DNA of 64,000 nucleotides. Source: Bacteroidota bacterium. GTDB lineage: Bacteria; Bacteroidota; Bacteroidia; Chitinophagales; Chitinophagaceae. Each line of letters begins with the position of its first letter. Position 1 is the first letter of the stretch. The stretch covers positions 248,001 through 312,000 of the forward strand of contig JAHEFI010000001.1 of assembly GCA_024640255.1 (NCBI GenBank). The letters run 5' to 3'. Both the position numbers and the translations under genes were made by a program. Of the stretch, positions 40,232 to 58,468 are shown in pieces. Below the pieces are notes generated by a model. It was given only the letters and a program-made list of their open reading frames with translations. It did not search any database and had not been told where the DNA came from.

Positions 40232-40891
40232 ATGAAAAACAAAGTAGTTATTACTGGATCTACTGGCATGGTAGGAAGTGTTGTTCTTGAGTTATGCTTA
40301 GATAGTAGTGAAGTATCTGAGATTATCTCACTTGTCAGAAAGCCAACCAATATTCAGCACTCGAAATACAAAGAAGTGGTAGTTGCTGATTTTTTACAAT
40401 ATCAAGATCAAGCCGCTTTATTCAATGATGTCAATATTGTTTATTATTGTCTTGGTGCCTATACTGGTTCTGTTCCTGCAGATGAATTTAGAATAATCAA
40501 TTATGATTATCCATTAAACCTAGCTAAAGCCATTCATGAAAAATCGCCGAATGCTAGATTTTGTTTACTTAGTGGTCAAGGGGCTGACAGAACAGAGAAA
40601 AGTACAATGCAATTTGCAAGAGATAAGGGTGCAATAGAAAATGCACTTTCAGCTTTACATTTTGGATCCTTTTATTCATTTAGGCCGGGTTATATTTACC
40701 CCACTAAAAAAAGAAAAGAACCCAATACTTTTTATGTAATTTCAAGAATGGTCTATCCACTTTTAAAGTTATTGGGAAAGTCATTAAGTATTACAGATCA
40801 ACAGTTAGCAAAAGCTATTTTTAATGTTGGTTTGAATGGCTATTCAAAAGAAATATTAGAAAACAAAGACATGAGATTGCTTCAATTATAA
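40232..40891 (+). CDS. NAD(P)-binding Rossmann-fold protein (atypical SDR, HTATIP2-like)
   Basis: 219 residues with the nucleotide-binding start VVITGSTGMVGSVVLELCL and the YYCLGAYTG, NYDYPLNLAKAIHEK, CLLSGQGADR and FYSFRPGYIYP blocks of atypical short-chain dehydrogenase/NmrA-like proteins. The usual YxxxK is not obvious, so it may bind NAD(P) without the classical reaction. Heads a small rightward cluster with SRPBCC and ACT proteins (10 and 16 bases apart). Role unknown. Confidence 0.82.
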   Translation: MKNKVVITGSTGMVGSVVLELCLDSSEVSEIISLVRKPTNIQHSKYKEVVVADFLQYQDQAALFNDVNIVYYCLGAYTGSVPADEFRIINYDYPLNLAKAIHEKSPNARFCLLSGQGADRTEKSTMQFARDKGAIENALSALHFGSFYSFRPGYIYPTKKRKEPNTFYVISRMVYPLLKLLGKSLSITDQQLAKAIFNVGLNGYSKEILENKDMRLLQL

Positions 40892-40901
40892 TAATAAATT
40901 T

Positions 40902-41303
40902 ATGATTACCATTAAGAATACAGTGAATGCCCCAATTGAAAAGGTTTGGGAATATTGGACAAAAGAAGAGCATGTTAAAAATTGGAATTTTGCAGCAGCT
41001 GATTGGCATTGCCCTAATGCAACAAATAACCTTCAAGTAGGTAGTGAATTTCATTATACAATGGCAGCCAAAGACAATTCCTTTAGTTTTGATTATTGGG
41101 GAACTTATAAAAACATAGAGATAAATAAACAACTTGATTTTGTATTAGGAGATGGAAGAAAGGTGGTGGTTAGTTTTGAATCAACTGAAGATGGAACTAT
41201 AGTTACTGAACATTTTGAACCGGAGCAACAAAATCCATCAGAATTACAACAAACAGGTTGGCAAATGATTTTGGATAATTTTAAGGCTTATGTCGAATGC
41301 TAA
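40902..41303 (+). CDS. SRPBCC family protein (AHSA1/START-like)
   Basis: 133 residues: ITIKNTVNAPIEKVWEYWT at the start, NWNFAAADWHCPNATNN, GSEFHYTMAAKDNSFSFDYW and the C-terminal GWQMILDNFKAYVE are characteristic of the AHSA1 branch of the SRPBCC ligand-binding fold. Probably a small hydrophobic-ligand binding or stress protein. No catalytic residues can be named. Confidence 0.9.
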   Translation: MITIKNTVNAPIEKVWEYWTKEEHVKNWNFAAADWHCPNATNNLQVGSEFHYTMAAKDNSFSFDYWGTYKNIEINKQLDFVLGDGRKVVVSFESTEDGTIVTEHFEPEQQNPSELQQTGWQMILDNFKAYVEC

Positions 41304-41319
41304 ATTTCAATAATTCACT

Positions 41320-41712
41320 ATGAATAAACCTGAAACTAATCTGAATATTCTTTTACAGAATATGAATCCAATATTAAATGAAGGCGATTATGTTTTTTGT
41401 ACTCTCTCCAATAATGAAAAAATAGACTTGAACAAAGTTCTTGGATCTTTCAAAGAAAAAGAAGGCACAACTCTAATTATTACAAAAGAGTATGCAGATT
41501 TAATGGGGTTCTCTTATACTTCTATAATGTCTTGGATTAGTTTAGAGGTTCATTCATCATTAGAAGCGGTTGGTCTAACAGCAGCTTTTTCAAAAGTATT
41601 AGCTGATGCTAATATTTCTTGTAATGTAGTTGCAGGCTATTACCATGACCATATATTTGTTTTAAAGCAAGATGCACTAAGAGCTATTGGATTATTAAAA
41701 GACTATAAATAA
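41320..41712 (+). CDS. Tandem ACT domain protein
   Basis: 130 residues. The order MNPILNEGDYVFCTL (ACT_3-like) followed by WISLEVHSSLEAVGLTAAFS and SCNVVAGYYHDHIFV (ACT_7-like) matches the small two-domain ACT proteins formerly called DUF2241. Related proteins bind amino acids or their derivatives and may regulate metabolism or toxicity resistance; the ligand is unknown. Last gene of the rightward cluster, convergent with the esterase. Confidence 0.85.
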   Translation: MNKPETNLNILLQNMNPILNEGDYVFCTLSNNEKIDLNKVLGSFKEKEGTTLIITKEYADLMGFSYTSIMSWISLEVHSSLEAVGLTAAFSKVLADANISCNVVAGYYHDHIFVLKQDALRAIGLLKDYK

Positions 41713-41722
41713 TTTATAGTAA

Positions 41723-42529
41723 TTATTTATTTAAAATCTTTTCAATTTCTTGAAACATTAAATGGATTCCTGGTAGGTACATTGCGCCATGACTGAATCC
41801 TTGTAATTCATATAGAGATATATTTCTATTTCCTGCTAATTTCATCATTCTAACGAAATAAGCATTTTCCTCATATCGTCCTAATAATTCTAATTCTCTA
41901 TCACCTGTTATATCAATGATAGGTGGTGTATTAGATTTTATAAAATTTAACGGCGCATACTCATTAATAACAGGTTGAATGTCTTTGATATTGTTTTCAG
42001 CCCTTATAGTAAAATGAGTTATTACCTGTGGGCTTAATGGAATACATGCCTTAATACTACTATTGGGAATATGGTATTTTAATAACCACGCTTCATCCAT
42101 TGTTAACATCATTGATAAATAACCTCCTGCAGAATGTCCAGATAAAAATATTTTACTAGTATCACCTCCATATTGTTGAATATTATTATATACCCAAGCA
42201 AAAGATGCAGCAGCATCTTCAATATATTTTGGTGCTTTTACTTTAGGGCTTAATCTATATTCAACTGATACAATAATAAATTTATTGCTTTTTAGTTCTT
42301 CGGAAATTTTTTTGGTTCCACCTGTTAATCCACCACCATGAAACCAAATTATAACTGGTAAATCTTTTTTATTTCCTTCTGGAATATAAATATCTAATTT
42401 ACACTGATCTTTTTGGTATGAATCTGTATTTTCTTTTTCATTGTAATAAGATACATTAAACACATCATTCTTTTGTGCATAAATTGCAGTACAAAATAAA
42501 ATATTTATAATTAAAATAATTTTTTTCAT
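41723..42529 (-). CDS. Secreted alpha/beta hydrolase (carboxylesterase-like)
   Basis: 268 residues with signal peptide 1-18. Oxyanion-hole motif WFHGGGLTGG, nucleophile elbow GHSAGGYLS (Ser ~135), acid in ITGDRELE and catalytic His in GFSHGAMY. Fits BD-FAE/esterase-lipase family proteins of Bacteroidota that cleave acyl or feruloyl esters. Its ATG lies 2 bases after the stop of the His-head gene at 42532, so the two are probably co-transcribed. Confidence 0.9.
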   Translation of the reverse strand: MKKIILIINILFCTAIYAQKNDVFNVSYYNEKENTDSYQKDQCKLDIYIPEGNKKDLPVIIWFHGGGLTGGTKKISEELKSNKFIIVSVEYRLSPKVKAPKYIEDAAASFAWVYNNIQQYGGDTSKIFLSGHSAGGYLSMMLTMDEAWLLKYHIPNSSIKACIPLSPQVITHFTIRAENNIKDIQPVINEYAPLNFIKSNTPPIIDITGDRELELLGRYEENAYFVRMMKLAGNRNISLYELQGFSHGAMYLPGIHLMFQEIEKILNK

Positions 42530-42531
42530 TT

Positions 42532-43335
42532 TTATTCTTTTTCTGAATTGTAATCAAAATGTATTTTTTTAAAATAAATCCTTAATAAATGTAATAATTC
42601 ATGGCATTGTTTTTGGGCTGGCTCAATTCTTAATTCATTTGAACGTTTTATTACATTGTTCATTCCTCCTGTTATATTAATAAAAGACGATTCATTAAAA
42701 TTATTTTCCTCTAGTAATTTTATCTTCTTAGGTAATGCATGTAAGGGTTTTGTAATTATAGAATCTCCTTCAACATATGCATTATCATAATTAAGAATAT
42801 AAAGTATATTTTGATCAAAATATTTAAATCTGATAGGATCTATGAATTGGTTCAAAAAGTTTTCTTCTCTAATTTCTCTAGATTCTAATACTTTAGTGTA
42901 ATGACTATAATTTTGTATTGCATTAATTAATTCATCATCATCAATAAAATTAAGTCTACCTGTATTTTTGACTTCATCAAGTGCCATATTATTTATACTT
43001 GGTATTGAACGGTTGGAGATTTGTCCAAGTAGTACATAGTTTTCAATTAAATGGTTTTTTAATTGGCCACTTTCATAGTATTTTGTAATTATTTCAAATA
43101 AGCTATCTATTTTTTTTCTTTTAGGTAATGCTGTCGAAAATAAAACCGAATCTTTTTGTATATCACGATATAATGTTTTCAAGCTTTTTTCAGTTTTATG
43201 AATTTCTACTTGATGCTCTCTTATATTTTCTGCGAAAAATCCTAAAGTAACGGCTGTAAATAATAGAACAAATTCAATAATATACTCAGACCATTTCTTT
43301 TTATGGTTTGCGTGATGAGGGTGATGTACTTCCAT
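42532..43335 (-). CDS. His-head single-pass membrane protein, solitary member (type B head, type A-like body)
   Basis: 267 residues. The head MEVHHPHHANHKKKWSEY and helix IIEFVLLFTAVTLGFF are type B, yet the body has the type A landmark 'VKNTGRLNFIDDDELINAIQNY' style stretch (compare SGSLSFIKNNE) and lacks the SRNEA.AKGY block of the other type B genes. It thus looks like a mosaic. Located away from the two arrays, followed by an esterase gene, and without a GTTCC-N13-GGAAC site upstream. Function unknown. Confidence 0.75.
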   Translation of the reverse strand: MEVHHPHHANHKKKWSEYIIEFVLLFTAVTLGFFAENIREHQVEIHKTEKSLKTLYRDIQKDSVLFSTALPKRKKIDSLFEIITKYYESGQLKNHLIENYVLLGQISNRSIPSINNMALDEVKNTGRLNFIDDDELINAIQNYSHYTKVLESREIREENFLNQFIDPIRFKYFDQNILYILNYDNAYVEGDSIITKPLHALPKKIKLLEENNFNESSFINITGGMNNVIKRSNELRIEPAQKQCHELLHLLRIYFKKIHFDYNSEKE

Positions 43336-43499
43336 GACTTAATTTTGTAATTGTATATAAGTTAAACTTTCTAAAGAATATGAAAAATTGAATTTCTTGT
43401 TAATTCTAGGGGATAAAAGAATACCTATTATGTTAAAACCAACCTAAATTAATTTCTTTTTAAATAATTTTATATCTAACTTCAAGTAAAATTAATACT

Positions 43500-43718
43500 A
43501 TGAAAAAATTAATCTTTGCTAGCTTATTTAGCTTTAGCTGCATTTTTGCTTTTGCGGCAGATCATTGTACTGCTGATTGTCACAAAAATGAACATAAATG
43601 CACTGCCGCATGTCATAAAAATGGAGCAGGTCATGTTTCCAATCATGGCGAAAAAGGACATATGTGCGCCAAGGAATCATGTAAGCACGATTGCTCGAAA
43701 GAATGCACGAAAAAGTAA
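43500..43718 (+). CDS. Small exported Cys/His-rich protein, putative metal binder
   Basis: 72 residues. Signal peptide of about 19 residues ending FAFAA, then a 50-residue mature part with eight Cys and nine His in CTADCHK, CTAACHK, HMCAKESCKHDC and SKECTK repeats. The spacing CxxxC-H resembles no family I can name; a periplasmic metal-binding or buffering role is inferred from composition. A strong terminator 20 bases downstream shows that it is a monocistronic unit. An overlapping open frame on the same strand at 43516 is considered a shadow. Confidence 0.72.
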   Translation: MKKLIFASLFSFSCIFAFAADHCTADCHKNEHKCTAACHKNGAGHVSNHGEKGHMCAKESCKHDCSKECTKK

Positions 43719-43738
43719 TCTTTACTTCTAAAAATTTC

Positions 43739-43767
43739 AAAGGGAACCCTAAAAGTTCCCTTTTTTG
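43739..43767 (+). terminator. Rho-independent terminator of the Cys/His-rich protein gene
   Basis: Stem AAAGGGAAC / GTTCCCTTT with a 6-base loop, followed by TTT. Confidence 0.85.
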
Positions 43768-43777
43768 GCTTTAATAT

Positions 43778-43800
43778 GTTCCCAAATATTATATTGGAAC
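43778..43800. promoter_or_regulatory. Inverted repeat GTTCC-N13-GGAAC, copy 3
   Basis: 80 bases before the SnoaL-like lipoprotein gene, with flank AATAT before and AAATT after. TTTTGAC and a TATATTTTG box lie between site and gene. Confidence 0.75.
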
Positions 43801-43880
43801 AAATTCCGGCTATTTGAAGCTAGAATTTTGACTTTTTGGATATATTTTGTTCGCTCAATCTAAACCAAATTCAAAAAAAA

Positions 43881-44363
43881 ATGAAAAAGCTATTATCGGT
43901 TCTTTTTGTGTCAACAATGCTATTTGCATGTAATAATGAAGCTGCAAAAAAAGAACAGGTTGAAAATGAGAATGTAAAATTCTATGATCATGTATGGGAT
44001 GTAGTAATTAACCAAGGGAATGTTAATTACCTAGATACAGCCTATGCCGCAGATGTGGTTTTACATACTGTACCTGAAATTAAAGGCAAGGATAGTGCAA
44101 AGGCATACTATGCTAATTATGTTACTGGTTTTAGCAATAGACAATTTATTGTAAAAGAGATCTTTGCAAAAGGAGACAAAGTGGTAAAATACTGGCAGTT
44201 TAAAGGAACTCATACTGGTCCATTCTTTGGTATTCCTGCAACAGGAAAGACAATTGATGTGATTGGATGTACAATTGCAAAAGTGGTAGATGGTAAAATT
44301 ACAGAAGAACAAGACTTCTTTGATAACTACGCTTTCTTACAACAAATTGGACTTATTAAATAA
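43881..44363 (+). CDS. SnoaL/NTF2-like lipoprotein
   Basis: 160 residues from MKKLLSVLFVSTMLFACNNE; the lipobox (LFAC, Cys17) decides this start rather than the one 15 codons upstream. The mature part is a SnoaL-like ester cyclase/NTF2 fold: WDVVINQGNVNYLDTAYAADVVLHT, GKDSAKAYYANYVTGFSNRQFIVKEIFA, GDKVVKYWQFKGTHTGPFFG, GKITEEQDFFDNYAFLQQIG. Active site not assignable. Single gene with a strong terminator after it and a GTTCC-N13-GGAAC site before it. Confidence 0.87.
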   Translation: MKKLLSVLFVSTMLFACNNEAAKKEQVENENVKFYDHVWDVVINQGNVNYLDTAYAADVVLHTVPEIKGKDSAKAYYANYVTGFSNRQFIVKEIFAKGDKVVKYWQFKGTHTGPFFGIPATGKTIDVIGCTIAKVVDGKITEEQDFFDNYAFLQQIGLIK

Positions 44364-44379
44364 TTCGTTTTTTTAAGTT

Positions 44380-44417
44380 AAAGGGCCGCTCTCTTTTGAG
44401 ATGCGGCCCTTTTTTTA
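44380..44417 (+). terminator. Rho-independent terminator of the SnoaL-like gene
   Basis: Stem AAAGGGCCGC(TCTC) / (GAGA)TGCGGCCCTTT followed by TTTTATTT. Confidence 0.9.
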
Positions 44418-44443
44418 TTTCTTCATATTTATTAAATTGTTGC

Positions 44444-45742
44444 ATGATTAAGATCTCCATAACCTTCTTATTTGCAGCCTTATTTAGCTTATCTGTTAAC
44501 GCCGTAGCAGGTAAACAAAGTATTTACCAAATGCATGACGCAAATAAAATGATCGTTCCAATTGGTGGAAATACCTGGACTATTAACGGTGCTAAAGTAT
44601 CTAATAATGGTTTATCTGATTGGACTTCTTCTACAACAAGCGTACAAACCTATATTTATCTTTCGCAAAGCGGCTCACTTCATCTCTCTCTTAATATGAA
44701 TCCGGGAGGGAAGAATATCTTGAAAATTACCATTCAAGGTCTTTCAAAGGAATTGACTGTTGAGGGCGAAAAGGAAAGTGAATATTATGTTGGAAAATGG
44801 GAAAATGTACAACAGGGTTATGTGAAGATTGAAATGCAAGGTGTATCAAGATCTGCCAATAGTTTCGGAACTATCAGTTCACTAGGCATTAGTGGCACTG
44901 CTGTAAACAATGAAACGGCGTTTGTGAAAGATAACAATGACAATTATTTCTATTGGGGAAGAAGGGGTCCATCAGTTCATTTGAAATACGATTTACCATC
45001 TTCTGAAATTACTGACTTTTATAATGAAATAAAAGTGCCTGAAGGGAATGATGTTATTGGCTCTTACTTTATGGCCAACGGTTTTGCAGAAGGCTATTTT
45101 GGTATTCAGGTTAATTCATCAATAGAAAGAAGAATTCTTTTTTCTGTTTGGAGTCCTTATGCTACCGATAATCCTGCAAGCATACCATCTGAATTTAAGA
45201 TCGCTATGCTCAAAAAAGGGAATAATGTTCATGCAGGAGAATTTGGTAATGAGGGATCAGGTGGACAGAGCTATCTGGTGTATCCATGGAAAGCAGGGAT
45301 GACCTATAAGTTTCTTTTGCGCGGGCAACCACAGTCGGATAATTCAACCATCTTTACTGCTTATTTCTTTGCACCTGAAGAAAACAAATGGCTTCTTATT
45401 GCTAGTTTCAAAAGGCCATCTACTAATACTTACCTAAAAAAACTACATTCCTTTTTGGAAAACTTTGTTACTGAAACTGGAAACCAAGCCAGAATGGCCC
45501 TTTATGGCAACCAATGGGTAAGAGATACCAATGGAGTTTGGATAGCACTCAATTCAGCAAAATTCACTGCAGATCAAACTGCCAGAAAGCGATTCAGACT
45601 TGATTATTTCGGTGGAATCAATGGAGGCAGCTTTTTTCTAAAAAATTGCGGGTTCTTTTCCCCATCCACAACTATTGACAGTCAATTCAATATTGAGATG
45701 CCAACTAAAGCTCCAGTTATTTATTTCGAAGATCTACCTTAA
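44444..45742 (+). CDS. Secreted DUF5077/DUF3472 domain protein
   Basis: 432 residues starting MIKISITFLFAALFSLSV; the frame opens 16 codons upstream but that start lies in the terminator. After the signal peptide comes a carbohydrate-binding-like beta domain (DUF5077, ~25-150: ANKMIVPIGGNTWTINGAK) and then DUF3472 (~160-420: YFYWGRRGPSVHLKYDLPSS, YFMANGFAEGYFGIQVNS, FSVWSPYATDNP, GGQSYLVYPWKAGMTYKFLL). Found in Bacteroidota polysaccharide-related gene sets; biochemical role unknown. Its base composition is slightly less AT-rich than the flanking His-head genes. Confidence 0.85.
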   Translation: MIKISITFLFAALFSLSVNAVAGKQSIYQMHDANKMIVPIGGNTWTINGAKVSNNGLSDWTSSTTSVQTYIYLSQSGSLHLSLNMNPGGKNILKITIQGLSKELTVEGEKESEYYVGKWENVQQGYVKIEMQGVSRSANSFGTISSLGISGTAVNNETAFVKDNNDNYFYWGRRGPSVHLKYDLPSSEITDFYNEIKVPEGNDVIGSYFMANGFAEGYFGIQVNSSIERRILFSVWSPYATDNPASIPSEFKIAMLKKGNNVHAGEFGNEGSGGQSYLVYPWKAGMTYKFLLRGQPQSDNSTIFTAYFFAPEENKWLLIASFKRPSTNTYLKKLHSFLENFVTETGNQARMALYGNQWVRDTNGVWIALNSAKFTADQTARKRFRLDYFGGINGGSFFLKNCGFFSPSTTIDSQFNIEMPTKAPVIYFEDLP

Positions 45743-45754
45743 TATAAAAACAAA

Positions 45755-46519
45755 TTACTTTATTTCAGATCTTAAAAGTCTTATAAGGGCGTCGTTACTT
45801 TTTTTAGCTCGCTTCAAATTTGTTCTATATACAAATAGGTAGTTGTAATATTTTTGAACTTCATAAATAAATTCATCAGATCTCAATAAATTTTTTGTTT
45901 TATCTAAGTCGAACATAAAATTTTGAAATCCATCTGGGTCATTTAAAACGTACTCGTTTGAAAAATTTTGTTTTTCTCTTATAAGTTTTCCTATACCAAT
46001 TGGGTAGTAGTTATTAAAAACAGTACCAACTTGATCAAAAAATTCATTAGTAGCTTCAATTGCTTTAAAATCTACTTCATAATATGTAGCCAAAGTGTCT
46101 TTTAAATCACCTTCTTCTAAATTACCTAGTAAGCCACTTGACTGAAGATTTTTAAATGAACTATTGTTCACATATAATGTTGTAGAATAAGCAATAAGCT
46201 TTGGAATTGTTTTGAAAGAGTCAATTAGCTGAGCTTGACTTATTTTATTGGTCTTAGCAAGGTATAAAAGATTATTTATCTTATTGAATCTTAAAATGCA
46301 GCTATCTTCAACTGCAAGCACATGTTCAATTTCTATTGAGTCCGCAAGTAAATCTTTTAAAATAGCTATTTTATTTTGTTCAATCTTATGATTAATTACT
46401 TGATGTTCTCTAAGATTTTCGGCTAGAAATCCTAGCGTTACCGCTGCAAATAACATGATGAATTCTGTAATATATTCTTTCCAGTTTTTTGGTTTGTGAC
46501 TGTGGTGATGTACTTCCAT
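45755..46519 (-). CDS. His-head single-pass membrane protein, array 2 gene 3 (type A head)
   Basis: 254 residues. Head variant MEVHHHSHKPKNWKEY, helix ITEFIMLFAAVTLGFLAENL. Body landmark LQSSGLLGNLEEGDLKDTLATYY aligns with the SGSLSFIKNNETKKLI block of 28751. Its ATG overlaps the previous stop by one base. Last gene of a three-gene leftward array; stop converges with the DUF3472 gene 12 bases away. Confidence 0.75.
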   Translation of the reverse strand: MEVHHHSHKPKNWKEYITEFIMLFAAVTLGFLAENLREHQVINHKIEQNKIAILKDLLADSIEIEHVLAVEDSCILRFNKINNLLYLAKTNKISQAQLIDSFKTIPKLIAYSTTLYVNNSSFKNLQSSGLLGNLEEGDLKDTLATYYEVDFKAIEATNEFFDQVGTVFNNYYPIGIGKLIREKQNFSNEYVLNDPDGFQNFMFDLDKTKNLLRSDEFIYEVQKYYNYLFVYRTNLKRAKKSNDALIRLLRSEIK

Positions 46520-47304
46520 TATTTATATATTGGTTCAATTAATTTTAATAGTTGTGCGCCTTGATCTCTTAGCTCTATCTGAAATCTTAAACCCACTGTA
46601 GTTCTTTCTTGTCTTAAATGCCATGCTTTGGCTAAAGTTTCAATTTGCTCATTAGTTAGTTTTGTAGTTTCTAAAGATTTTGTAATTCCATCTTTAAATT
46701 TGGAATAATTTTCATAACGAAATTTATGGAAAGTGGAATCTAATTTATTTAACAATTTTAATTCTTCCTCACTATGATATTTAAAAAAAGATATTGGTAA
46801 AATTTTGGTAATTGTAGGTCTAAATTCTGCATTATATTGCTCAAGTTCAACCATTGATCTTGTTTCTGCTTGACTTGCATTTTCTTCATACCTTAATATA
46901 GCATTTAACACCTCCTTATTTTGAATATATCTTAATGATCCTGAATTTTTCATTTCTTCAAATATTGTTTTTTTATTGGAGAAACGATATAACCATAAGT
47001 CAATACTTTCAGATAATTTTTTTAAGTCAACCTTTTGTTTTTCAAAACCATATATTAAAGATAATGAGTCATAATAGTTTACAGTTCTTTGATTGTTAAT
47101 AATTATTGAATCTAATTGTTTTTGATTTTCTTTTACATCCAATATGAAAGATTTAATAAATTCTTCTGATCTTTCACTTTCAGTATGTTTTTCTCTAACA
47201 TTTTCAGCAATAAAACCCATACTGACTGCCAGAAACAACATCAGAAATTCGGTTAAATATTCTTTCCATTTTTTGGGATGATGCGAATGATGATGTACTT
47301 CCAT
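46519..47304 (-). CDS. His-head single-pass membrane protein, array 2 gene 2 (type A head)
   Basis: 261 residues. Head MEVHHHSHHPKKWKEY, helix LTEFLMLFLAVSMGFIAENV. Body contains EEMKNSGSLRYIQNKEVLNA, the A-type landmark, and a K/E-rich helical end. One-base TAATG overlaps on both sides show translational coupling. Function unknown. Confidence 0.75.
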   Translation of the reverse strand: MEVHHHSHHPKKWKEYLTEFLMLFLAVSMGFIAENVREKHTESERSEEFIKSFILDVKENQKQLDSIIINNQRTVNYYDSLSLIYGFEKQKVDLKKLSESIDLWLYRFSNKKTIFEEMKNSGSLRYIQNKEVLNAILRYEENASQAETRSMVELEQYNAEFRPTITKILPISFFKYHSEEELKLLNKLDSTFHKFRYENYSKFKDGITKSLETTKLTNEQIETLAKAWHLRQERTTVGLRFQIELRDQGAQLLKLIEPIYK

Positions 47305-48032
47305 TATTTATTATTTTCTATTAAATTTATTGCTTTGTTTGCATAATATGACATTGAATCCATATCAACTGTAAGTCCATCAAAAACACCCTTGGTTGTT
47401 GCTAAGAAAATAATTGCTTTTTTGCTAGCTTCTGGTTTTATTGTTGTTATCCCCATTTTGCTTTCTAAAGGTGGTGATGGGTATCTCCAAATTTTATAAA
47501 CAATTTCTTCATCTGCAATTTGAGGAAGAATTTCATTGATAAATAATTTTGCCTGTTCTTCTAATATTTTATCTCCTTGGATATAGTCATTCATCCAAAA
47601 ATTATATTTCTTTATGAAATAAGCTAGATCTCTATTTTCTTCTTTAAAGAAATACCCCTTTGATTCAGCATCTTTAATACTTTTATCATTAGGGTAAAAA
47701 AAATAATTTGGAGCATAATTCATTATATCCCTATAATAATCTTTTTGGTCTACTTTGTTTGGATTTGTATTTAATATAATTTTAATACTATCTGAAAACT
47801 TATTTTTTTCTGATGCCAAACCTTTTAGTGTTTGTAATTGCTCTAAATCACTTCTTAAATCTTTAGCAACCACATGTAGTAATTCTTTAGCTTTATTTTC
47901 CTCTGCTAAATGTTCTCTTATATTTTCAGCAAAAAAGCCTAATGTTACAGCAAGGAATAGCATAAAAAATTCCAAGAAATATTCAGACCATTTCTTTTTG
48001 TGTGCGGGATGGTGTGGGTGATGTACTTCCAT
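47304..48032 (-). CDS. His-head single-pass membrane protein, array 2 gene 1 (type B head)
   Basis: 242 residues. Head MEVHHPHHPAHKKKWSEY; body landmark NDKSIKDAESKGYFFKEENRD and the EIL...YRIWRYPSPPLE-like end group it with the B genes of array 1. First gene of array 2, with the inverted repeat ending 68 bases before the ATG. The array order B-A-A mirrors B-B-A-A in array 1, which suggests segmental duplication. Confidence 0.77.
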   Translation of the reverse strand: MEVHHPHHPAHKKKWSEYFLEFFMLFLAVTLGFFAENIREHLAEENKAKELLHVVAKDLRSDLEQLQTLKGLASEKNKFSDSIKIILNTNPNKVDQKDYYRDIMNYAPNYFFYPNDKSIKDAESKGYFFKEENRDLAYFIKKYNFWMNDYIQGDKILEEQAKLFINEILPQIADEEIVYKIWRYPSPPLESKMGITTIKPEASKKAIIFLATTKGVFDGLTVDMDSMSYYANKAINLIENNK

Positions 48033-48141: not shown

Positions 48142-48239
48142 AAAAAGGGTCTACGCTTTTGACAGCATAAACCCTTGAAAATCTTGCCTTTCGGCTGTGG
48201 GCCCACCAGGGCATGATCCTGGGACCCCCTGATTATGAG
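48142..48239. repeat. Direct repeat (att-like), left copy
   Basis: 98 bases, 96 identical to 54141-54238. Includes a terminator hairpin on the minus strand (AAGGGTTTATGCT pairs with AGCGTAGACCCTT, then T-rich) and a tRNA 3' fragment. Confidence 0.85.
48198..48239 (-). pseudogene. 3' fragment of the CAU tRNA gene
   Basis: Equivalent to the last 42 bases of the intact gene at 54197-54270: begins in the anticodon loop (CTCATAA), keeps the T arm CCAGG/CCTGG and the 3' acceptor strand. The 5' half is absent. Probably the displaced original end of the tRNA gene after integration. Confidence 0.8.
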
Positions 48240-48360
48240 CGTTTAAAAGCCAGTTCTAGCTATTTTCATTTATTGATATTCAATCACTTCTGTACTCAAA
48301 ATAGATTTAGTTTTCCTATATTTCACCTGCTTTTGAAGTTTTTTATAAGATCTGGCACCA

Positions 48361-50028
48361 TTATTTTGGTTTTATACTATTTGCATAAACATCGTATTTG
48401 TAAAAGTCATCTTCAGTAAATTGACTACCACTTCTAATAAAAACAGATTTTCTTGTTAAAGATTTATTCCAATAGTTATGTGGATCTATGTATGAAAAAT
48501 CTGCTTGTCCGTCACCATTGAAATCATGGAAAATCAACCAAGGCTTCCAAGATGAGCCTGGTGATCCACTATGTCTTGAAGCATTAATTGAATATATGAA
48601 TTTTGAATCATCTAAAGTGAAACTGCCATCTTTATTTTGCATGTAAAGGTGAAAATAGAAATCATCATAATTAGTAGCTCCAGAACAAATTATATCATTT
48701 AAGCCATCACCATCAAAGTCTATTAATCTAAAATCACTATTTAATGAACCTTCTTTGAAGTATGGTAAAAAAGTAATTGAATTATTATCAAACTTTCCAC
48801 CTCCCTTATTGTATACTATCCTACTGCTTAATGTAAACGGAAGATAAGTTGTTGTAACCATGCTATTTTCATTAGTACCCTCAATTATATCTTTCCAACC
48901 ATCTTTATTTACATCGGCAATTTTAATATTATACACACCACCTCCACCTTTATTTAAATTATTATTATCCCAAATATTAAAATATGTAACATTACTACTA
49001 AAGTATGGATAATCTGGAATACCCCAGGCTATATACATGTCACCTGTTGCTACAACCAAATCAGGATAGCCATCATTATTCAAATCAGCAATATCACCAC
49101 TATGATTGTATTTTAATACTGGAGTAATGTTTGTCAAATCTTTTAAATCGTAACCACCTTTGCCATCTGAAAGCACTAACCTAATTGGTTGAAGTGGATT
49201 TGATGTAGTAACATCATCTCCGTGATCAAAAATGACGACATCAGTATAACCATCTTTATTAATATCATATGCAATAGATCTTCTTTGATTACCACCAAAA
49301 TGTTGTAAAGTTTTAACATTGAAAAGTGATTTATTATCAAAAGATTTTGTTGATGGATTCCATATTAACCATTGAGCATTGTCCATTGGTTGTGAATTAT
49401 AAGACCCAGTTCCTGGATTAAATACATCAATCCAACCATCATTATTAAAATCACCCACAATTAATTGAGGCATAAAGCCACTCCATTGTGTTCCATAATT
49501 AGGATTTATTGGTTGTCCAAATTTGAACATTAAAACATCCCACATAACACCACAATCTCTCCAATAATTTATTTCATCTTTTGATTTTAAGTATGAATCT
49601 ACCTTATAACCCATGAACCTACCTAATGGATTATTAACTACCGTAATAGATTTATTTAAAGTATTTGAAGAAGTTACTTTAGAGGTTACATTTATATTAA
49701 TTGAATAATTTCCAGGTTTCTTAAATCCCGGAATTTGAATTAATAAACTTGATTGACTTAAACTTGAGTCTAACTTAAAAATTTGTTTAGAACTATCAAT
49801 CCAAGTGGCAGTTACGGAATATAAGACTCCAGAAGTAGGTAATTTTGAAATAACTGATATTACTAAAGGTAATGTATCGGCTACATTATAAGTTCCTGTA
49901 TCAAGATTTGTAGTGAATTTTATATTCTCTTCTTGAATTGAAATTATAACAGGAGGTGTTGTAGTTTTTTCTGTTTTAGTACAAGAATAAATAAGTATTA
50001 TAAAAAAAATCAAAATATTTTTTTTCAT
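48361..50028 (-). CDS. FG-GAP/VCBS repeat lipoprotein
   Basis: 555 residues. Lipoprotein signal MKKNILIFFIILIYSCTK (Cys16). Residues ~35-135 form an Ig-like beta domain shared almost word for word with the next protein (TNLDTGTYNVADTLPLVI). From ~150 to the end there are FG-GAP repeats with calcium-binding loops: GDFNNDGWIDVF, DINKDGYTDVV, DLNNDGYPDLVV, DVNKDGWKDII, DFDGDGLNDII, DFNGDGQADFS. A surface beta-propeller adhesion or carbohydrate-binding role is typical. Last of three related leftward genes in the islet. Confidence 0.88.
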   Translation of the reverse strand: MKKNILIFFIILIYSCTKTEKTTTPPVIISIQEENIKFTTNLDTGTYNVADTLPLVISVISKLPTSGVLYSVTATWIDSSKQIFKLDSSLSQSSLLIQIPGFKKPGNYSININVTSKVTSSNTLNKSITVVNNPLGRFMGYKVDSYLKSKDEINYWRDCGVMWDVLMFKFGQPINPNYGTQWSGFMPQLIVGDFNNDGWIDVFNPGTGSYNSQPMDNAQWLIWNPSTKSFDNKSLFNVKTLQHFGGNQRRSIAYDINKDGYTDVVIFDHGDDVTTSNPLQPIRLVLSDGKGGYDLKDLTNITPVLKYNHSGDIADLNNDGYPDLVVATGDMYIAWGIPDYPYFSSNVTYFNIWDNNNLNKGGGGVYNIKIADVNKDGWKDIIEGTNENSMVTTTYLPFTLSSRIVYNKGGGKFDNNSITFLPYFKEGSLNSDFRLIDFDGDGLNDIICSGATNYDDFYFHLYMQNKDGSFTLDDSKFIYSINASRHSGSPGSSWKPWLIFHDFNGDGQADFSYIDPHNYWNKSLTRKSVFIRSGSQFTEDDFYKYDVYANSIKPK

Positions 50029-50116
50029 TATTTAAAAAGTATATTTATTTGAATAATATTATGATGAATTAATTCCTACTTTAACAATATTAACTACTTC
50101 ATTTTTAAAAGTAATT

Positions 50117-51775
50117 TTAAGGTTTTATTAAGGATTTTAAACTTGCAGCAAAGGGATCAAATTGATAGTAATCTTGTTCTACAAATTGATTCCCTTGACG
50201 AATAAAAACTGATTTATATATAATTTCACCATTATCAGCATCATCAATATATGATAAGTCTTTTTTACCATCTCCATTATAATCAAAATATAATATTCTT
50301 GGTTTATACATGCCTTTTCTTGAATTATTGATTGAATAATTTATTAATGAGTTATCTATAGAAAAAGATTTATCTTTTTGTTGAAGATAAAATACGAAAT
50401 TCCATTTATTATATAAAGTAGTATTTAATGCTACAATATCATTCAGTCCATCGCCATTAATATCGTCAACTATATAATCTTGAATACCAACCATCAAATC
50501 GTTGTTATTAAAATTAGGCAATATAATTAATCCATTTTTATTAAACCTTCCTTTGCCCTGATTGATTAAAACTCTATTTTTTGAAAGATCATTTGAGGCA
50601 ATCAAGATATCTTTTTCACCATCATTATTAACATCAGCAATTGTTGCATTATAAGCATCTCCTGCAGCTTGCGGAAATGATTCACCAAAACTATTATTTC
50701 CGGGAAAATTAATACTATCACTACCGAAATGTGCATAATTTATATCACTAAAATAAGGAGCAGTAGAATTTCCCCAAAATATGAAACTATTTGAATTACA
50801 TGTTATAAATAAATCTACATTCCCATCTGAATTTAAATCACCAACATCACCACCTTCAATTGTAAATTGTGAATATTTTGAGGGAATATTCACTTTATTA
50901 ATATCGTAACCTCCTTTTCCATCACTTAGGCAAATCATCATAGGTTGATTAACACTTGGTTGAAATCCCTCATCAGCATGACCAAAAATCACCAAGTCAA
51001 CATAGTTGTCATTATTTAAATTTAATGAAATCACTTTTACTGGATTTTTTAAATCAAAAGTTCCGTCATTAAATAAATTTTTTTCCTCAAATTTTTTAGT
51101 TGTAGGATTCCAGATTAAAAAAGCTGATTTTGCTTGTATCCCTTTATAGTCTGCCCCACCATTAAAAACATCTATATATCCGTCATTGTTGAAATCACCA
51201 GCTGCTAATGATAGAAGAAAAGTGCCATATTTATTTCTATCGCCATATGGTTTTTGAAATACAATAGTAATTAAGTCTAACATTACACTTGTATTATACC
51301 AATATGATAAACCTTTATCTTTTTGTCTTGTTTTAGCTAATGTTTCTTGATCTATTTTATATCCTGTAAACCTAGCTAAAGGGTTGTTAATAAAAGAAAT
51401 TGACTTATTAATTGTATTTGTAACACTTGATTTAGAAGTGATATTAATTCCAATAGAGTAATTACCTGCTTTTTTGAGACCAGGTATATTCAAGTTTAAT
51501 ATTGAAACTGAAAGACTAGTATCTAATTTAAAAATCTGTTTTGAACTATCTGTCCAATTAATTATAATAGAATAAATAACTCCTGCTGTTGGTAATTTTG
51601 AACTTACTGTAATTACTAAAGGTAATGTATCGGCTACATTATAAGTTCCTGTATCAAGATTGGTTGTGAATTTTATTAACTCTTCTTCAACGACTTTAAC
51701 AGGCAGGGTTCCTTTATCGGTTTTACTACACGCAATAAAAAATAAAATACCCAAAGCAAAGATTACTCTTTTCAT
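50117..51775 (-). CDS. FG-GAP/VCBS repeat lipoprotein, paralogue
   Basis: 552 residues. Lipoprotein signal MKRVIFALGILFFIACSK (Cys16). Same layout as the downstream gene: shared Ig-like domain (~30-130), then FG-GAP loops GDFNNDGYIDVF, NLNNDNYVDLV, DLNSDGNVDLF, DVNNDGEKDIL, DINGDGLNDIV, DYNGDGKKDLS. DNA of the segment for TNLDTGTYNVADTLP is nearly identical between the two genes while flanks have diverged, showing duplication with partial conversion. An upstream element AATCTATCCTTTGGGG is shared with the gene at 51824. Confidence 0.88.
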   Translation of the reverse strand: MKRVIFALGILFFIACSKTDKGTLPVKVVEEELIKFTTNLDTGTYNVADTLPLVITVSSKLPTAGVIYSIIINWTDSSKQIFKLDTSLSVSILNLNIPGLKKAGNYSIGINITSKSSVTNTINKSISFINNPLARFTGYKIDQETLAKTRQKDKGLSYWYNTSVMLDLITIVFQKPYGDRNKYGTFLLSLAAGDFNNDGYIDVFNGGADYKGIQAKSAFLIWNPTTKKFEEKNLFNDGTFDLKNPVKVISLNLNNDNYVDLVIFGHADEGFQPSVNQPMMICLSDGKGGYDINKVNIPSKYSQFTIEGGDVGDLNSDGNVDLFITCNSNSFIFWGNSTAPYFSDINYAHFGSDSINFPGNNSFGESFPQAAGDAYNATIADVNNDGEKDILIASNDLSKNRVLINQGKGRFNKNGLIILPNFNNNDLMVGIQDYIVDDINGDGLNDIVALNTTLYNKWNFVFYLQQKDKSFSIDNSLINYSINNSRKGMYKPRILYFDYNGDGKKDLSYIDDADNGEIIYKSVFIRQGNQFVEQDYYQFDPFAASLKSLIKP

Positions 51776-51787
51776 ATTTTAAGATTT

Positions 51788-51803
51788 AATCTATCCTTTG
51801 GGG
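51788..51803 (-). promoter_or_regulatory. Shared upstream element of FG-GAP genes, copy 1
   Basis: Read leftward CCCCAAAGGATAGATT, ending 12 bases before the ATG of the lipoprotein gene. Identical 16 bases occur before the gene starting at 53998. Confidence 0.55.
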
Positions 51804-51823
51804 TAATCAAATATATGAAAAAA

Positions 51824-53998
51824 TTATAATTTCAACATCTTAAATTGATAAGCTATTTTATTATCGTTTGACATTACTTTTATTATGTAAGTTCCTGTTG
51901 ACAATTGACCAAGATTTATTTGAATTCCCGGTATTAAATTTTGTTTAATAGCAACAATAGTCCCTGTTGCTAAATCAATTACTTCTATATTTAATCTCTG
52001 ATAGCCTTTAACTACAAAATCAAAATTTAATTGGCTAATAAAGGGATTTGGCGCAAGTTTGATATATTCTTCAGAATTTAAATTTATAACATCAGTGACT
52101 AAAAAATAGTACGGTGAACTCGTAGCACTAGTACATCCATTTTGAGTAGTTTTAACTGTATAAGAACCAGGAAGGATTGGTTTAATTTTTTGTGTAGTAT
52201 CTGTAATTAAAGCTCCATCTTTGTACCAAGTATTTCCGATACTAATACTTGATATTAGATAGTTTGCAGTATCTCTAACTATTGAAGGATTTGATGGAAT
52301 AGGAAGTTTAACTAAATTTATTGTATCAGAAGAAATTAAACAACCCAAACTGTCGGTTCTAGTAACAAATAATTTACTACTATCCGTAAATGATTTGCTA
52401 GAAATATTGCTTAAATCAGTTTTTGATCCATAAAACCACCTCAATGAATCTCCTTTATTTATATTGGTTATTGTTAATTTCAATGAATCACCTGTACAAA
52501 ATGAAAATTTATTAGTATTAAATATTGGTTTCTGTAATCTACCTGGTAAACATATTATTCTTTTCTTCAATGTACTTAACAATGATTTTGCAAATAAATC
52601 ATATTGATAATAATCCTTTTCAATAAATCTACTTCCTTCTTTTATAAACACAGTTTTAAATGGCATTATATTACCAGTATTTAAAACCGAATCATACATT
52701 CCACAATCGTCACCCCATGCTGAATTTATATATCCGATATCCATTTTACCATCATTATTATAATCATAACTAAAAAGATGAGTTCCTGAACCTCCTGAAC
52801 CTCCTAGAATTTTAGTCTTAAATGATGATGAAAATTGTATTATTGTAGTATCATAATAAAATGAATGATCGGATTTTTGAATTACAGAATAAATATTATT
52901 ATAAGATCTTTTTCCATTTAAGCCACCTCCCGTAACCGTAATAAAATCATTTAATCCATCACTATTAATATCCATCATCATATAATCACCACCATCACCT
53001 TGTGGTATATATCTTGGAATATTTATTACATTTTTATCATTAAAGCGCCCTAGTCCTTGATTAATAATAATTTTGTCATCTGTAGGATTTGCGCCATAGA
53101 CTATTAAGTCATTTTTACCATCATTATTTACATCAGAAATTACACCACCAAATGAATTGGCGCAACTTGAGCATGCTTCACCAAATCCGTTATTACTCAT
53201 AGTCGGAAAACTATTTAAGTCACTTACAAATAGAGGGTGATTTTTTGAATCAAAAAATGGGAAATTGGATGTACCCCAAAATATATAAGCAAAATTATTT
53301 GCTGAAATATACATATCTGGAAGTCCATCTCCATTTAAGTCATCAATATCTCCTGACCCTTTATAAATAGTCGGCTTTCCATTTGGTGTACCTGGAGGAA
53401 ATACATCATTTTCGTTTGTAATTATTTCAGAATAATCATATCCTCCTTTACCATCACTAATTATTAATTTAATTGGAGCAAAAGCATCATCACCTGGAAA
53501 TATTACAATATCAACATAATTATCTGAATTTAGATAAACTGGAACAGCCTTCATTGCACTAATTAGAACTTCAATTGATTTATCTTTAATTAGATTAGTG
53601 TCTTTAAATACTTTATTTACACTATCCCATAATAAGAAGGAGAATCCAATACCTCGATTTCTATCTTTATAACTAGCAGAGTCAATTCCTCCAGGCGTAA
53701 AAACATCAATCCAGCCATCATTATTGAAATCTCCACATATTGAACCACCCCAACCACCTTGAATACAATTACGTTGAGTTGCAATTTGAGAAAAACTTAA
53801 AGGGTTTTGAAAAGTTTGAACAACTAAATCTTTCATTAAAGGAAAATTTCTTTTCCAAAATGTAGCACCTAATTTTTTTACATCGTTTGGAGCTTTGTAG
53901 CCTTTAAAATTTTTAACTACAGAGTCTAGATTTTGAGTTTGAGCAAAAGTGATTTGAGTTGTAAGTAAAATCCCTAAAGCTAAGATTATTCTTTTCAT
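51824..53998 (-). CDS. FG-GAP repeat protein with type IX secretion sorting domain
   Basis: 724 residues from MKRIILALGILLTTQITFAQ, a signal peptide; an upstream in-frame ATG 18 codons earlier is rejected because it would bury the signal and the shared upstream element. FG-GAP loops (GDFNNDGWIDVF, DLNGDGLPDMY, DVNNDGKNDLI, DINSDGLNDFI, DYNNDGKMDIG) span ~90-480; ~510-640 are Ig/PKD-like segments (FCTGDSLKLTI, SLGCLISSDTI); the last ~80 residues (LAPNPFISQLNFDF to YQFKMLKL) are a T9SS type A sorting domain. Exported to the cell surface by the type IX system. First gene of the islet operon. Confidence 0.9.
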   Translation of the reverse strand: MKRIILALGILLTTQITFAQTQNLDSVVKNFKGYKAPNDVKKLGATFWKRNFPLMKDLVVQTFQNPLSFSQIATQRNCIQGGWGGSICGDFNNDGWIDVFTPGGIDSASYKDRNRGIGFSFLLWDSVNKVFKDTNLIKDKSIEVLISAMKAVPVYLNSDNYVDIVIFPGDDAFAPIKLIISDGKGGYDYSEIITNENDVFPPGTPNGKPTIYKGSGDIDDLNGDGLPDMYISANNFAYIFWGTSNFPFFDSKNHPLFVSDLNSFPTMSNNGFGEACSSCANSFGGVISDVNNDGKNDLIVYGANPTDDKIIINQGLGRFNDKNVINIPRYIPQGDGGDYMMMDINSDGLNDFITVTGGGLNGKRSYNNIYSVIQKSDHSFYYDTTIIQFSSSFKTKILGGSGGSGTHLFSYDYNNDGKMDIGYINSAWGDDCGMYDSVLNTGNIMPFKTVFIKEGSRFIEKDYYQYDLFAKSLLSTLKKRIICLPGRLQKPIFNTNKFSFCTGDSLKLTITNINKGDSLRWFYGSKTDLSNISSKSFTDSSKLFVTRTDSLGCLISSDTINLVKLPIPSNPSIVRDTANYLISSISIGNTWYKDGALITDTTQKIKPILPGSYTVKTTQNGCTSATSSPYYFLVTDVINLNSEEYIKLAPNPFISQLNFDFVVKGYQRLNIEVIDLATGTIVAIKQNLIPGIQINLGQLSTGTYIIKVMSNDNKIAYQFKMLKL

Positions 53999-54011
53999 AG
54001 ATAATTTTTTC

Positions 54012-54027
54012 AATCTATCCTTTGGGG
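54012..54027 (-). promoter_or_regulatory. Shared upstream element of FG-GAP genes, copy 2
   Basis: Same 16 bases as 51788-51803, ending 13 bases before the ATG at 53998. Confidence 0.55.
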
Positions 54028-54140
54028 GTATTACAAATTTAAATAGTTCCAATTAATTCCATCCCTTTACATCGATTTACTCCTGTTTTTCTTCAAAAAA
54101 ACAAAACCTGGTCCAAACTTGGCCGAGAATTACCCCAAAC

Positions 54141-54238
54141 AAAAAGGGTCTACGCATTTAACAGCATAAACCCTTGAAAATCTTGCCTTTCGGCTGTGGG
54201 CCCACCAGGGCATGATCCTGGGACCCCCTGATTATGAG
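54141..54238. repeat. Direct repeat (att-like), right copy
   Basis: 96 of 98 bases identical to 48142-48239; the two changes lie in the terminator loop. This copy is continuous with the intact tRNA 5' half. Confidence 0.85.
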
Positions 54239-54270
54239 TCAGGTGCTCTAACCAACTGAGCTATAGGCCC
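54197..54270 (-). tRNA. tRNA with CAU anticodon (Met or Ile2)
   Basis: 74 bases. Acceptor GGGCCTA/TGGGCCC, D arm GCTC/GAGC with AGTTGGTTA loop, anticodon arm CCTGA-CTCATAA-TCAGG (anticodon CAT), T arm CCAGG-ATCATGC-CCTGG, discriminator A, no encoded CCA. A CAU anticodon may be elongator Met or lysidine-modified Ile; the GGGCCTA acceptor resembles tRNA-Ile, but this does not decide it. The D-loop and lack of initiator features argue against initiator Met. Confidence 0.88.
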
Positions 54271-56733: not shown

Positions 56734-56810
56734 TCCTCCTTAGCTCAGTTGGTTAGAGCATCTGACTGTTAATCAGAGGGTCTCAGGTTCAAGTCCTGAA
56801 GGGGGAGCCA
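56734..56810 (+). tRNA. tRNA-Asn (GUU)
   Basis: Acceptor TCCTCCT/AGGGGGA, D arm GCTC/GAGC, anticodon arm TCTGA-CTGTTAA-TCAGA (GTT), T arm CTCAGG-TTCAAGT-CCTGA, discriminator G and an encoded CCA. Its 3' half is antisense to the end of the recombinase gene, consistent with an att site. Confidence 0.95.
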
Positions 56811-58317
56811 TAATAGACAGGAGGTCATTTTCGACCTCCTTTTTATTTTTAGACACTTCTAACTCTTTGATTATCATAAGTAAAATTGACACTGGTTTAG
56901 AAAAGGGGGTGGTTGCAACTCGTCCATTTTCAATTACCATTTTTTCATCAAAAATACAACCAAGGATTTTCTTCTTGGTACGTCCATCAGCTTTACGAAA
57001 GAACTGCACTAGGTTTTCCAACATAGGTACTTCCTTGGTAATATAGTTCTTATAGGTGCTACCAACCTTCAAAACAGTATTAAGATTTGACTCTGCAATT
57101 ACAATGTCCTTTTCAACCAATGCTTTAAGGTCATGGTATTCTTGTGGATCAATATCGTTGTCTAAAAATCGCTCCTGAAGAGTAGATTTGCGCAACTTAA
57201 ATTTTGCTACTTCCTTCTGTAGCTTTTCTATTTCAACCTTGCGTTGAAAGTCCTCACGATCAAAGATCCTTTCAAGTATTTTACGGTAGAGATTAAGTGA
57301 TTGTGCAGACAGTTGAATCATCTCAAGAATGTCTTCTACAGACTTATGAGCAGCTGAAATTCTATGTCGACTTTTACATTGATTTACAGGACATACATAA
57401 TAGTGGTGAATTGATTTGTTTCTGCTTAAAGCTCCGTATGCAGTTAATGGTTTATTATGAACAGGACATGCTAAAAAGCCCTTCAATGGATATAAGTCAG
57501 ATTTATCGTCATGGAACTTCATCTTTCTTTTACGTCCGTTAAGAACTTCATTAGCTCTGTAATAAATTTCTTCACTGATTAATGGTGGATGAAGTCCTTG
57601 ACTTAATTGCGATGGTTCTTTCTTCCATTCCTTCACGTATATTTTTCCCATGTAAGCGGGGTTGCGTATCAAGTCAAGAAAAGTTTGTTTGTGCATCTTC
57701 ATCCCTCGCTGATTAATCCATCTTCTAATTTCGTCTGCTGCGTAACCTCCACTAGCCATTTTCTCAAATGCTTCAATTATTATTGGTGCGTCGTTATTTG
57801 GTTTCAATGTTGATTTATCGCCATCACGGTAATTTGAATAACCTCTTGGTGCTGAACCTGTCCAACATCCTTCAATTTGAGCACGCCTCATCCCTTCTGT
57901 TGTGCGAATAGAATTCTTATCATTTTCTATCTCGGGTAATGTAAGGTATAAGGATAGCAGAACCTTATTATCGGGATTGCTGAAATCAATATGCTGCTCA
58001 ACTGTACCAACTCCAACTCCTAATTTCTCCAATTCTTTAATGGTAGTTAAAGCATCATACTGATTTCTTGAGAAGCGATCCCATCTAAGACACAGCACTT
58101 GGTCTACTGACTTCTTGTGCTTTTTAATGTAAGCCATTAGCTTTTTCCATTCAGGTCTATCAAAAGTTTTACCTGAATAGTCCTCGGTGTAGGTATCAAT
58201 GATATTGTATCCACGTAGGTTACAGTAGTCGTTTAATACCTTCTCTTGGTGTTGTAAACTAAACCCACGATCTGCTTGATCATCGGTGCTTACTCTCTTG
58301 TATAATATTACGTTCAT
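56773..58317 (-). CDS. Large serine recombinase (site-specific integrase)
   Basis: 514 residues from MNVILYKRVSTDDQ; 16 codons upstream are open but the catalytic start YKRVSTDDQ (Ser ~10) should be N-terminal. Resolvase domain ~1-145 with LCLRWDRFSRNQYD; recombinase domain ~160-260 (GSAPRGYSNY, TFLDLIRNPAYMGKIYV); zinc ribbon ~285-330 (FLACPVHNKPL, YYVCPVNQCKSR); coiled coil ~345-420. The last ~12 residues, APPSGLEPETL and stop, are encoded by the antisense strand of tRNA-Asn, and the segment before by its terminator. Integrates and excises the element. Use of a tRNA gene as target is more typical of tyrosine integrases. Confidence 0.92.
   Translation of the reverse strand: MNVILYKRVSTDDQADRGFSLQHQEKVLNDYCNLRGYNIIDTYTEDYSGKTFDRPEWKKLMAYIKKHKKSVDQVLCLRWDRFSRNQYDALTTIKELEKLGVGVGTVEQHIDFSNPDNKVLLSLYLTLPEIENDKNSIRTTEGMRRAQIEGCWTGSAPRGYSNYRDGDKSTLKPNNDAPIIIEAFEKMASGGYAADEIRRWINQRGMKMHKQTFLDLIRNPAYMGKIYVKEWKKEPSQLSQGLHPPLISEEIYYRANEVLNGRKRKMKFHDDKSDLYPLKGFLACPVHNKPLTAYGALSRNKSIHHYYVCPVNQCKSRHRISAAHKSVEDILEMIQLSAQSLNLYRKILERIFDREDFQRKVEIEKLQKEVAKFKLRKSTLQERFLDNDIDPQEYHDLKALVEKDIVIAESNLNTVLKVGSTYKNYITKEVPMLENLVQFFRKADGRTKKKILGCIFDEKMVIENGRVATTPFSKPVSILLMIIKELEVSKNKKEVENDLLSIMAPPSGLEPETL
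56819..56850 (+). terminator. Terminator of tRNA-Asn
   Basis: AGGAGGTC-ATTTTC-GACCTCCT followed by TTTTATTTTT, eight bases after the CCA. It also lies inside the 3' coding end of the antisense recombinase gene. Confidence 0.85.
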
Positions 58318-58339
58318 AGTTTGTAGTATTTTGCGAGAG

Positions 58340-58468
58340 CTAATTTTTGTAGCACTCGTATTCAATTTGAGCGAGAGACTTCATTAAGTCCTCCACTAAC
58401 TTTAAGTCATGACCAGTGACTCGTTCATTTTTTAAATGGTCTTGGTTTTTGCTGAAATCACTTTCCAT
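58340..58468 (-). CDS. Small protein of 42 residues upstream of the recombinase
   Basis: Open frame ATG to TAG: MESDFSKNQDHLKNERV then a helix-prone HDLKLVEDLMKSLAQIEYEC. It ends 22 bases before the recombinase ATG on the same strand. The charge pattern and position suggest a real small gene, perhaps an excisionase-like or regulatory partner, but no family is recognised. Confidence 0.45.
   Translation of the reverse strand: MESDFSKNQDHLKNERVTGHDLKLVEDLMKSLAQIEYECYKN

Follow-up and report, generated by a model that had tools for sequence, protein, structure and literature searches.

Genomic islands that lack an integrase are often set aside as relics. The ssrA islands of Dehalococcoides stand in tandem behind one RNA gene and have repeats of that gene's 3' end as their boundaries; 16 of the islands have an integration module and 15 lack one, the latter being proposed cis-mobilizable elements (PMC3146451). 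Such cis-mobilizable elements (CIMEs) are otherwise regarded as decayed remnants of integrative and conjugative elements (ICEs) or integrative and mobilizable elements (IMEs), moved by accretion (PMC5704250), and the account of flexible genomic island 2 (fGI-2) of the Methylophilaceae describes cargo blocks of 330 bp to 42 kb, each after a copy of the tRNA-Lys 3' end (PMC10872708). Here we analyse an islet in a 64,000-nucleotide stretch of the genome of a lake bacterium (Bacteroidota, Chitinophagaceae; contig JAHEFI010000001.1, positions 248,001 to 312,000), referred to below as the window. The islet lies at a tRNA gene with anticodon CAU and carries three FG-GAP genes for surface proteins. 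Judging by its sequence organisation, it quite probably belongs, as a non-autonomous integrative cassette once mobilised in trans, to a tyrosine-integrase family specific for tRNA-CAU, which we call class A.

Boundaries of the islet

The islet is bounded at both ends by a direct repeat of the 3' part of the tRNA, as are tRNA-targeted tyrosine-integrase elements. The two copies (48142-48239 and 54141-54238) measure 98 nucleotides (nt) each, agree at 96 of 98 positions (98%) and lie 5999 nt apart from start to start, a similarity that cannot be chance. ARAGORN identifies the tRNA-Met gene (anticodon CAU; 54196..54270, minus strand), the putative target that the islet would have reconstituted, and no other tRNA between the repeats. 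The proximal repeat (54141..54238, minus strand) is composed of the 43-nt tRNA 3' half and a terminator hairpin and probably arrived with the islet, while the distal repeat (48142..48239, minus strand) would be the displaced tRNA 3' half and terminator of the previous downstream DNA. The identity spans the terminator as well as the tRNA, and ends just past the terminator.

The tRNA part of the repeat covers tRNA positions 33-75, position 33 being the first base of the anticodon loop, so that the islet junction falls on the same base as in class-A elements. It opens with CTCATAA, the 7-nt loop of the intact tRNA (54232..54238, minus strand), which recurs at the distal junction (48233..48239, minus strand); the two copies mark the predicted crossover region on either side, on the proximal one also by comparison of class-A halves. 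Anticodon loops are reportedly crossover places for some integrase subfamilies. An earlier sequence-only reading of the window had described the repeat pair with its identity, spacing and content, as well as its start at the 5' edge of the anticodon loop, and sequence comparison and ARAGORN agree with it on each.

Class-A arms, integrases and cassettes

We compared the locus across 147 genomes of the window's genus, whose members include freshwater metagenome-assembled genomes (MAGs) titled Sediminibacterium. A tail match at E<=1e-6 was obtained in 111 of the 147, and about 110 stretches around such matches were scanned for tRNA halves, arms, genes and integrases, with gene calls based on open reading frames (ORFs) and contigs that often break at the tRNA-half repeats. 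In these stretches the tRNA-CAU is often trailed by several tandem tRNA halves with unrelated DNA between them. G066 (L080) has four sites in tandem and G146 (L078) at least three; in the latter, three full-length tyrosine integrases of three families (L078, 3936-16027) belong to consecutive elements, each beside its own junction. Because of these tandem halves and the three different integrases, tRNA-CAU is a genus-wide integration hotspot that serves several integrase families. The islet is thus not the lone element that it had been taken for, being one of dozens of cassettes bounded by tRNA halves at tRNA-CAU.

Neither are its genes fixed at this place in all relatives, the outcome that the sequence-only reading had named as speaking against itself: homologues of FG-GAP gene b occur in only 22 of the 147 genomes, and many different cargoes lie between tRNA halves across the genus, as that reading had expected of a mobile site. 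In G152, the closest among the compared relatives with the locus (86.6% nucleotide identity in the flank), other cargo is found at tRNA-CAU. Two further genomes, G136 and G043, were considered and set aside as strict empty sites: there the tRNA is followed directly by DNA like the window's distal flank, an arrangement that is only suggestive because the flank gene belongs to the paralogous MEVHH... family.

Many distal halves are preceded by a conserved right arm (GGCCAGGTT..GGCCAGGTTTTCACCAAAAACGGGTTAAAAGAGGTGAAATATGAGAAATATAAATCTATTTCAATCTTGTATCCTATTGATTATCAATAAAAGAAAAGG.... followed by CTCATAATCAGG), and a conserved left arm (GGCCAAGTTTGGGCCAGGTTTTGTGTTTTTAGAGGGAAAACAGGGGTGAATGGAGGTGAAGGGGTGGAATT) comes after the terminator of the matching proximal halves. 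Both arms have in common, in the same orientation, a tandem GGCCARGTT block and a GGTGAA block, which look as expected for arm-type integrase binding sites. With class A defined here from the same loci in which it is counted, its right arm occurs at 57 places in 40 of the 147 genomes. In the class-A halves that keep CTCATAA intact, 30 in number, identity to the tRNA begins without exception at position 33; in other classes it mostly begins anywhere from 27 to 33. The last ∼26 nt of the right arms before the junction vary by subtype (GGTATAGAATACC, AACAAGTGGGATGTT and, in the window, AGCTAGAACTGGCT) next to a conserved outer arm, and several of these core-proximal versions are inverted repeats; this part is a possible determinant of specificity.

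The islet carries an arm on either side. Its left arm (54040..54137, minus strand), with tandem GGCCAAGTTTGGACCAGGTTTTG and later conserved blocks, lies behind the proximal terminator, inside the islet, and is absent past the distal copy. It is recognised by nhmmer at E=1.1e-17 and by BLAST with 83% identity over 93 nt, its own genome having no second good copy; the window sequence was left out of the arm profiles used on it. The right arm (48240..48358, minus strand; TAAATCTATTT...ATATCAATAAATGAAAA... to the junction) is a diverged class-A arm, aligned by BLAST in register with class-A right arms of about 20 genomes at 71-73% identity and found by the profile, weakly when taken alone (E=0.19), yet at the exact expected position. 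A variant arm of the window's type (76% identical to it) stands in G013 between an FG-GAP gene and a decayed tRNA half. By sequence, then, the islet has both features of class A, a left arm after the terminator and a right arm before the distal half. The tRNA repeat, which the sequence-only reading had taken as the recombination site, is part of it; the whole appears to be longer and bipartite, consisting of left arm, tRNA half and right arm.

Class-A integrase genes are far rarer than the arms. The 419-amino-acid (aa) protein, with a Phage_int_SAM_5 and a weak Phage_integrase match, is intact only in G112, G149 and G155 (81-82% identical) among the 147 genomes, which hold one fragment besides. 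Class-A right arms are located 1.1-1.8 kb downstream of the integrase in G112 and G155; in G149 the next one follows 11.5 kb downstream, past other genes. The integrase has as neighbours an excisionase-like HTH_17 protein of 73 aa, DNA methylases, of which one is fused to ParB, and an AAA-like protein, and the remaining stretches of G112 and G149 hold genes of the defence type, restriction genes among them, and a gene for a replication initiation protein. Outside the genus, the left arm is also found behind tRNA-CAU in two other genera (G387, 94%, and G402) and, in opposite orientation, near tRNA-CAU in a further family (G458, 87%). Viral contigs searched by exact pattern matched neither arm and thus offer no sign that known viral sequences carry them.

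Twenty-five of the 26 class-A cassettes that are bounded on both sides contain no recombinase gene; they are spread over 22 genomes and measure 516-6612 bp (median 2.1 kb). The 26th (8.4 kb, G066) encodes a 192-aa recombinase made of the catalytic domain only. Two intervals have no ORF of at least 60 aa (516 bp in L080 of G066, oriented 16164-16680; 684 bp in L036 of G019, oriented 617-1301) and may be minimal units, similar to miniature inverted-repeat transposable elements, or deletion products. Some of the cassettes are far more similar between species than their hosts: those of L083, L115 and L179 are 94.7-97.2% identical, against 79% for hflX of the host species, and the same comparison gives 93.4% against 72.0% for L093 and L098 and 96.0% against 71.6% for L086 and L093. 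Since cassette identity so exceeds that of hflX, these integrase-less cassettes moved recently. The right-arm class differs among the copies of the last of these cassettes in L086, L093 and L094, the far end of L083 is decayed, and no site was found at that of L179.

The cargo of class-A cassettes is varied, including FG-GAP proteins, amylases, a TonB receptor, an AcrB-type efflux operon, a sulfatase, Fic and a MEVHH... family of membrane proteins that has no Pfam match. Among the commonest array genes (window 40000-48032, and many other loci) are those for a family of MEVHHPHHPTHKKKWSEY(L/I)LEF... membrane proteins of ∼250 aa, which match nothing in Pfam or NCBIfam. Defence was dropped as a general cargo function, PADLOC matches being only scattered.

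In the islet itself, three genes lie on the minus strand: c (51824..53998; 724 aa from ATG), with FG-GAP repeats, an immunoglobulin-like stretch and a type IX secretion system (T9SS) sorting domain (TIGR04183, 28.9 bits against a cut-off of 23), and the lipoprotein-like b (50117..51775, 552 aa) and a (48361..50028, 555 aa), which by reading of the sequence have lipoprotein-type signals. Their FG-GAP Pfam matches range from E 1e-17 to 1e-22, and the description of the islet as three FG-GAP genes only, two lipoproteins and one T9SS cargo, is borne out; the ORFs between the repeats include no recombinase gene. FG-GAP genes are one of many cargoes, found in other class-A cassettes (G135, G066, G005 and G006) and also beside other tRNAs, among them a second tRNA-CAU and a tRNA-Asp in the window's own genome. 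That second tRNA-CAU (L186, contig 40, 5403-10727) is directly followed by a pair of genes c and b, 70% and 65% identical to the window's, and by a gene for a 423-aa tyrosine recombinase, a related cargo on a different element.

Two observations concern the surroundings of the hotspot. Of 56 full copies of the tRNA-CAU (window 54196-54270) in the genus, 54 have the T-loop ATCATGC, with A54-T58 for the conserved T54-A58, where most relatives outside the genus have the usual TTCRANC-type loop; since a tRNA 3' half arrives with each cassette, an allele from a mobile element may have become fixed in the genus. At a distance of 2.5 kb from the hotspot, a 530-aa large serine recombinase (56734-58365), whose 3' end overlaps the neighbouring tRNA-Asn, belongs to a second, unrelated integrative element, and a similar one is present at the same place in G146. 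We rejected it as a helper of the islet, its site being different and no link having been found.

Origin of the islet

In the mechanism that we propose, a circular form would have carried the right arm, followed by the tRNA 3' half, the terminator and the left arm, around the core CTCATAA. A class-A-type integrase, encoded by another element, would have joined this core by recombination to the anticodon loop of the tRNA gene in the chromosome. The tRNA would have been made whole again by the arriving half, its former 3' half and terminator ending up 6 kb downstream. We infer that the class-A integrase acts on these arms in trans and that the islet came as a cassette, rather than losing an integrase in place; the FG-GAP proteins would be its selected cargo. 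Mobilisation in trans in the past is most likely, judging by the arms, and the islet may still be mobile at present. As the ends of the islet match the class-A arms, and the right arm is common to the islet and to integrase-encoding elements, the earlier proposal of an integrated element with an integrase lost or supplied in trans fits.

Several points weigh against this proposal. The genomes compared are MAGs or other assemblies, mostly fragmented, and no excised circle was seen in the assemblies used. For the autonomous elements, three in number, the left end lies off the contigs or was not found, so that the left arm is unproven there. The pairing of left and right arms is only moderately tight, through decay or mosaicism: over 46 consecutive site-to-site intervals, both arms were of class A in 21, neither in 11 and only one in 14 (Fisher p=0.03), which makes the arrays partly mosaic or decayed. 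The matching tyrosine integrase that the sequence-only reading had proposed to look for elsewhere in the genome did not turn up, as no class-A integrase was found in its assembly (86.6% complete), and hence no helper is shown there. Finally, the right arm of the window is diverged (71-76%) and has no tandem GGCCAGGTT repeat, so the islet may be fixed.

It could then be a decayed CIME, left by an autonomous element that entered the tRNA and then, at that same place, shed the genes for its integrase and its replication, with genes that are now ordinary chromosomal ones. The divergence of the right arm agrees with this, as do the lack of an integrase in the islet and of one of class A in its genome, and decayed tRNA halves, common in the arrays and seen also in G013. 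Both arms and both cores are nevertheless preserved, and the islet shows no remnant of an integrase. Moreover, the exchange of related integrase-less class-A cassettes between species implies that the integrase-less form is a mobile state and not a decay product only, and we regard the fixed remnant as unlikely.

Far less probable is recombination in the manner of integrons: a recombinase encoded in the chromosome, perhaps of a ∼190-aa type, would act on the tRNA half, or on its hairpins, in the form of folded single-stranded DNA. Small cassettes in arrays, with a recurring site that contains hairpins, would suit it, and catalytic-domain-only tyrosine recombinases of ∼190 aa do occur in the genus, the window's own genome included; these were rejected as the trans factor, being present in or next to only two class-A loci. 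The class-A arms adjoin the 419-aa SAM_5-type integrase instead, long conserved flanking arms are a feature of attP and not of attC, and cargo lies in both orientations (36 plus, 24 minus). Least probable of all is an origin without site-specific recombination, in which the 3' end of the tRNA and its terminator were duplicated as a segment and genes inserted afterwards, or the repeats recombined by homology. That the terminator is part of the repeat speaks for it, as does the homology which tandem tRNA halves provide for an exchange of the RecA type; against it, identity breaks at one and the same base in every one of the 30 class-A halves whose loop is intact, and conserved arms surround unrelated cargo, neither of which would be expected from duplication.

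Beyond mobilisation of the islet in trans, an integron-like cassette economy at a tRNA anticodon loop is about evenly balanced between being right and wrong: dozens of integrase-less cargo cassettes with conserved bipartite arms would be served by rare helpers in trans and pass from one genus of Chitinophagales to another, possibly even between families, the tRNA 3' half being rewritten at each insertion. Genes appear to pass between species on borrowed machinery, conserved ends being common to recombinase-less cassettes and to rarer recombinase carriers, and class-A cassettes may account for part of the variable surface and metabolic gene content of lake bacteria, in which the arms provide a sequence signature for finding them. 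With genomes that carry the right arm exceeding those with the integrase by more than 10:1, and with units that have defined, shared terminal arms and recent interspecies transfer, the movement of integrase-less islands becomes directly testable, with arms and an integrase that are named and a tRNA core of 43 nt.

Comparison with known systems

The Dehalococcoides ssrA islands resemble class A as tandem units bounded by the 3' end of an RNA gene, part of them without an integration module, with a conserved region around the repeat (PMC3146451). They differ in using a serine recombinase and the 3' end of the tmRNA, where class A has a tyrosine integrase and the tRNA-CAU anticodon loop, and in that integrase-less units dominate in class A (arm in 40 genomes, integrase in 3) and have two long arms (PMC3146451). 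The islet has the organisation of a CIME, with attL and attR flanks and no recombination or transfer genes, and so lacks the integrase gene that a tRNA-targeted tyrosine-integrase element in general carries; it contains no remnant genes that would point to decay of an ICE or IME. Like CIMEs, class-A cassettes stand in tandem at a tRNA gene, but they are numerous, short, share their arms and moved between species (PMC5704250).

With integron cassettes and clusters of attC sites lacking integron-integrases (CALINs), class A has in common arrays of short recombinase-less cargo cassettes mobilised, in class A presumably, by a recombinase encoded elsewhere (PMC11389934). Its site, however, is a tRNA half with flanking arms, of the double-stranded attP type and at an anticodon loop, and not a folded attC-type site or attI (PMC11389934), and its integrase is of the phage SAM_5 type (Phage_int_SAM_5 and Phage_integrase) rather than IntI. 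Additive flexible genomic islands of freshwater or marine bacteria (Methylophilaceae, PMC10872708; Alteromonas, PMC5217437) likewise consist of variable cargo blocks; the parts of these reports that treat the islands describe no shared arm family or matching integrase. Tycheposons, as outlined in two sources (PMC10872708, PMC11389934), are tRNA-associated, carry metabolic cargo and a tyrosine recombinase and have been proposed as satellites; they span 4-200 kb with that recombinase, whereas most class-A cassettes, and the window islet among them, have none. Integrase-less tandem islands at RNA genes are therefore already known, from Dehalococcoides ssrA islands, CIMEs and additive islands, and what is new is a two-arm cassette family, mostly recombinase-less and accompanied by rare elements with the matching integrase, at a tRNA anticodon loop.

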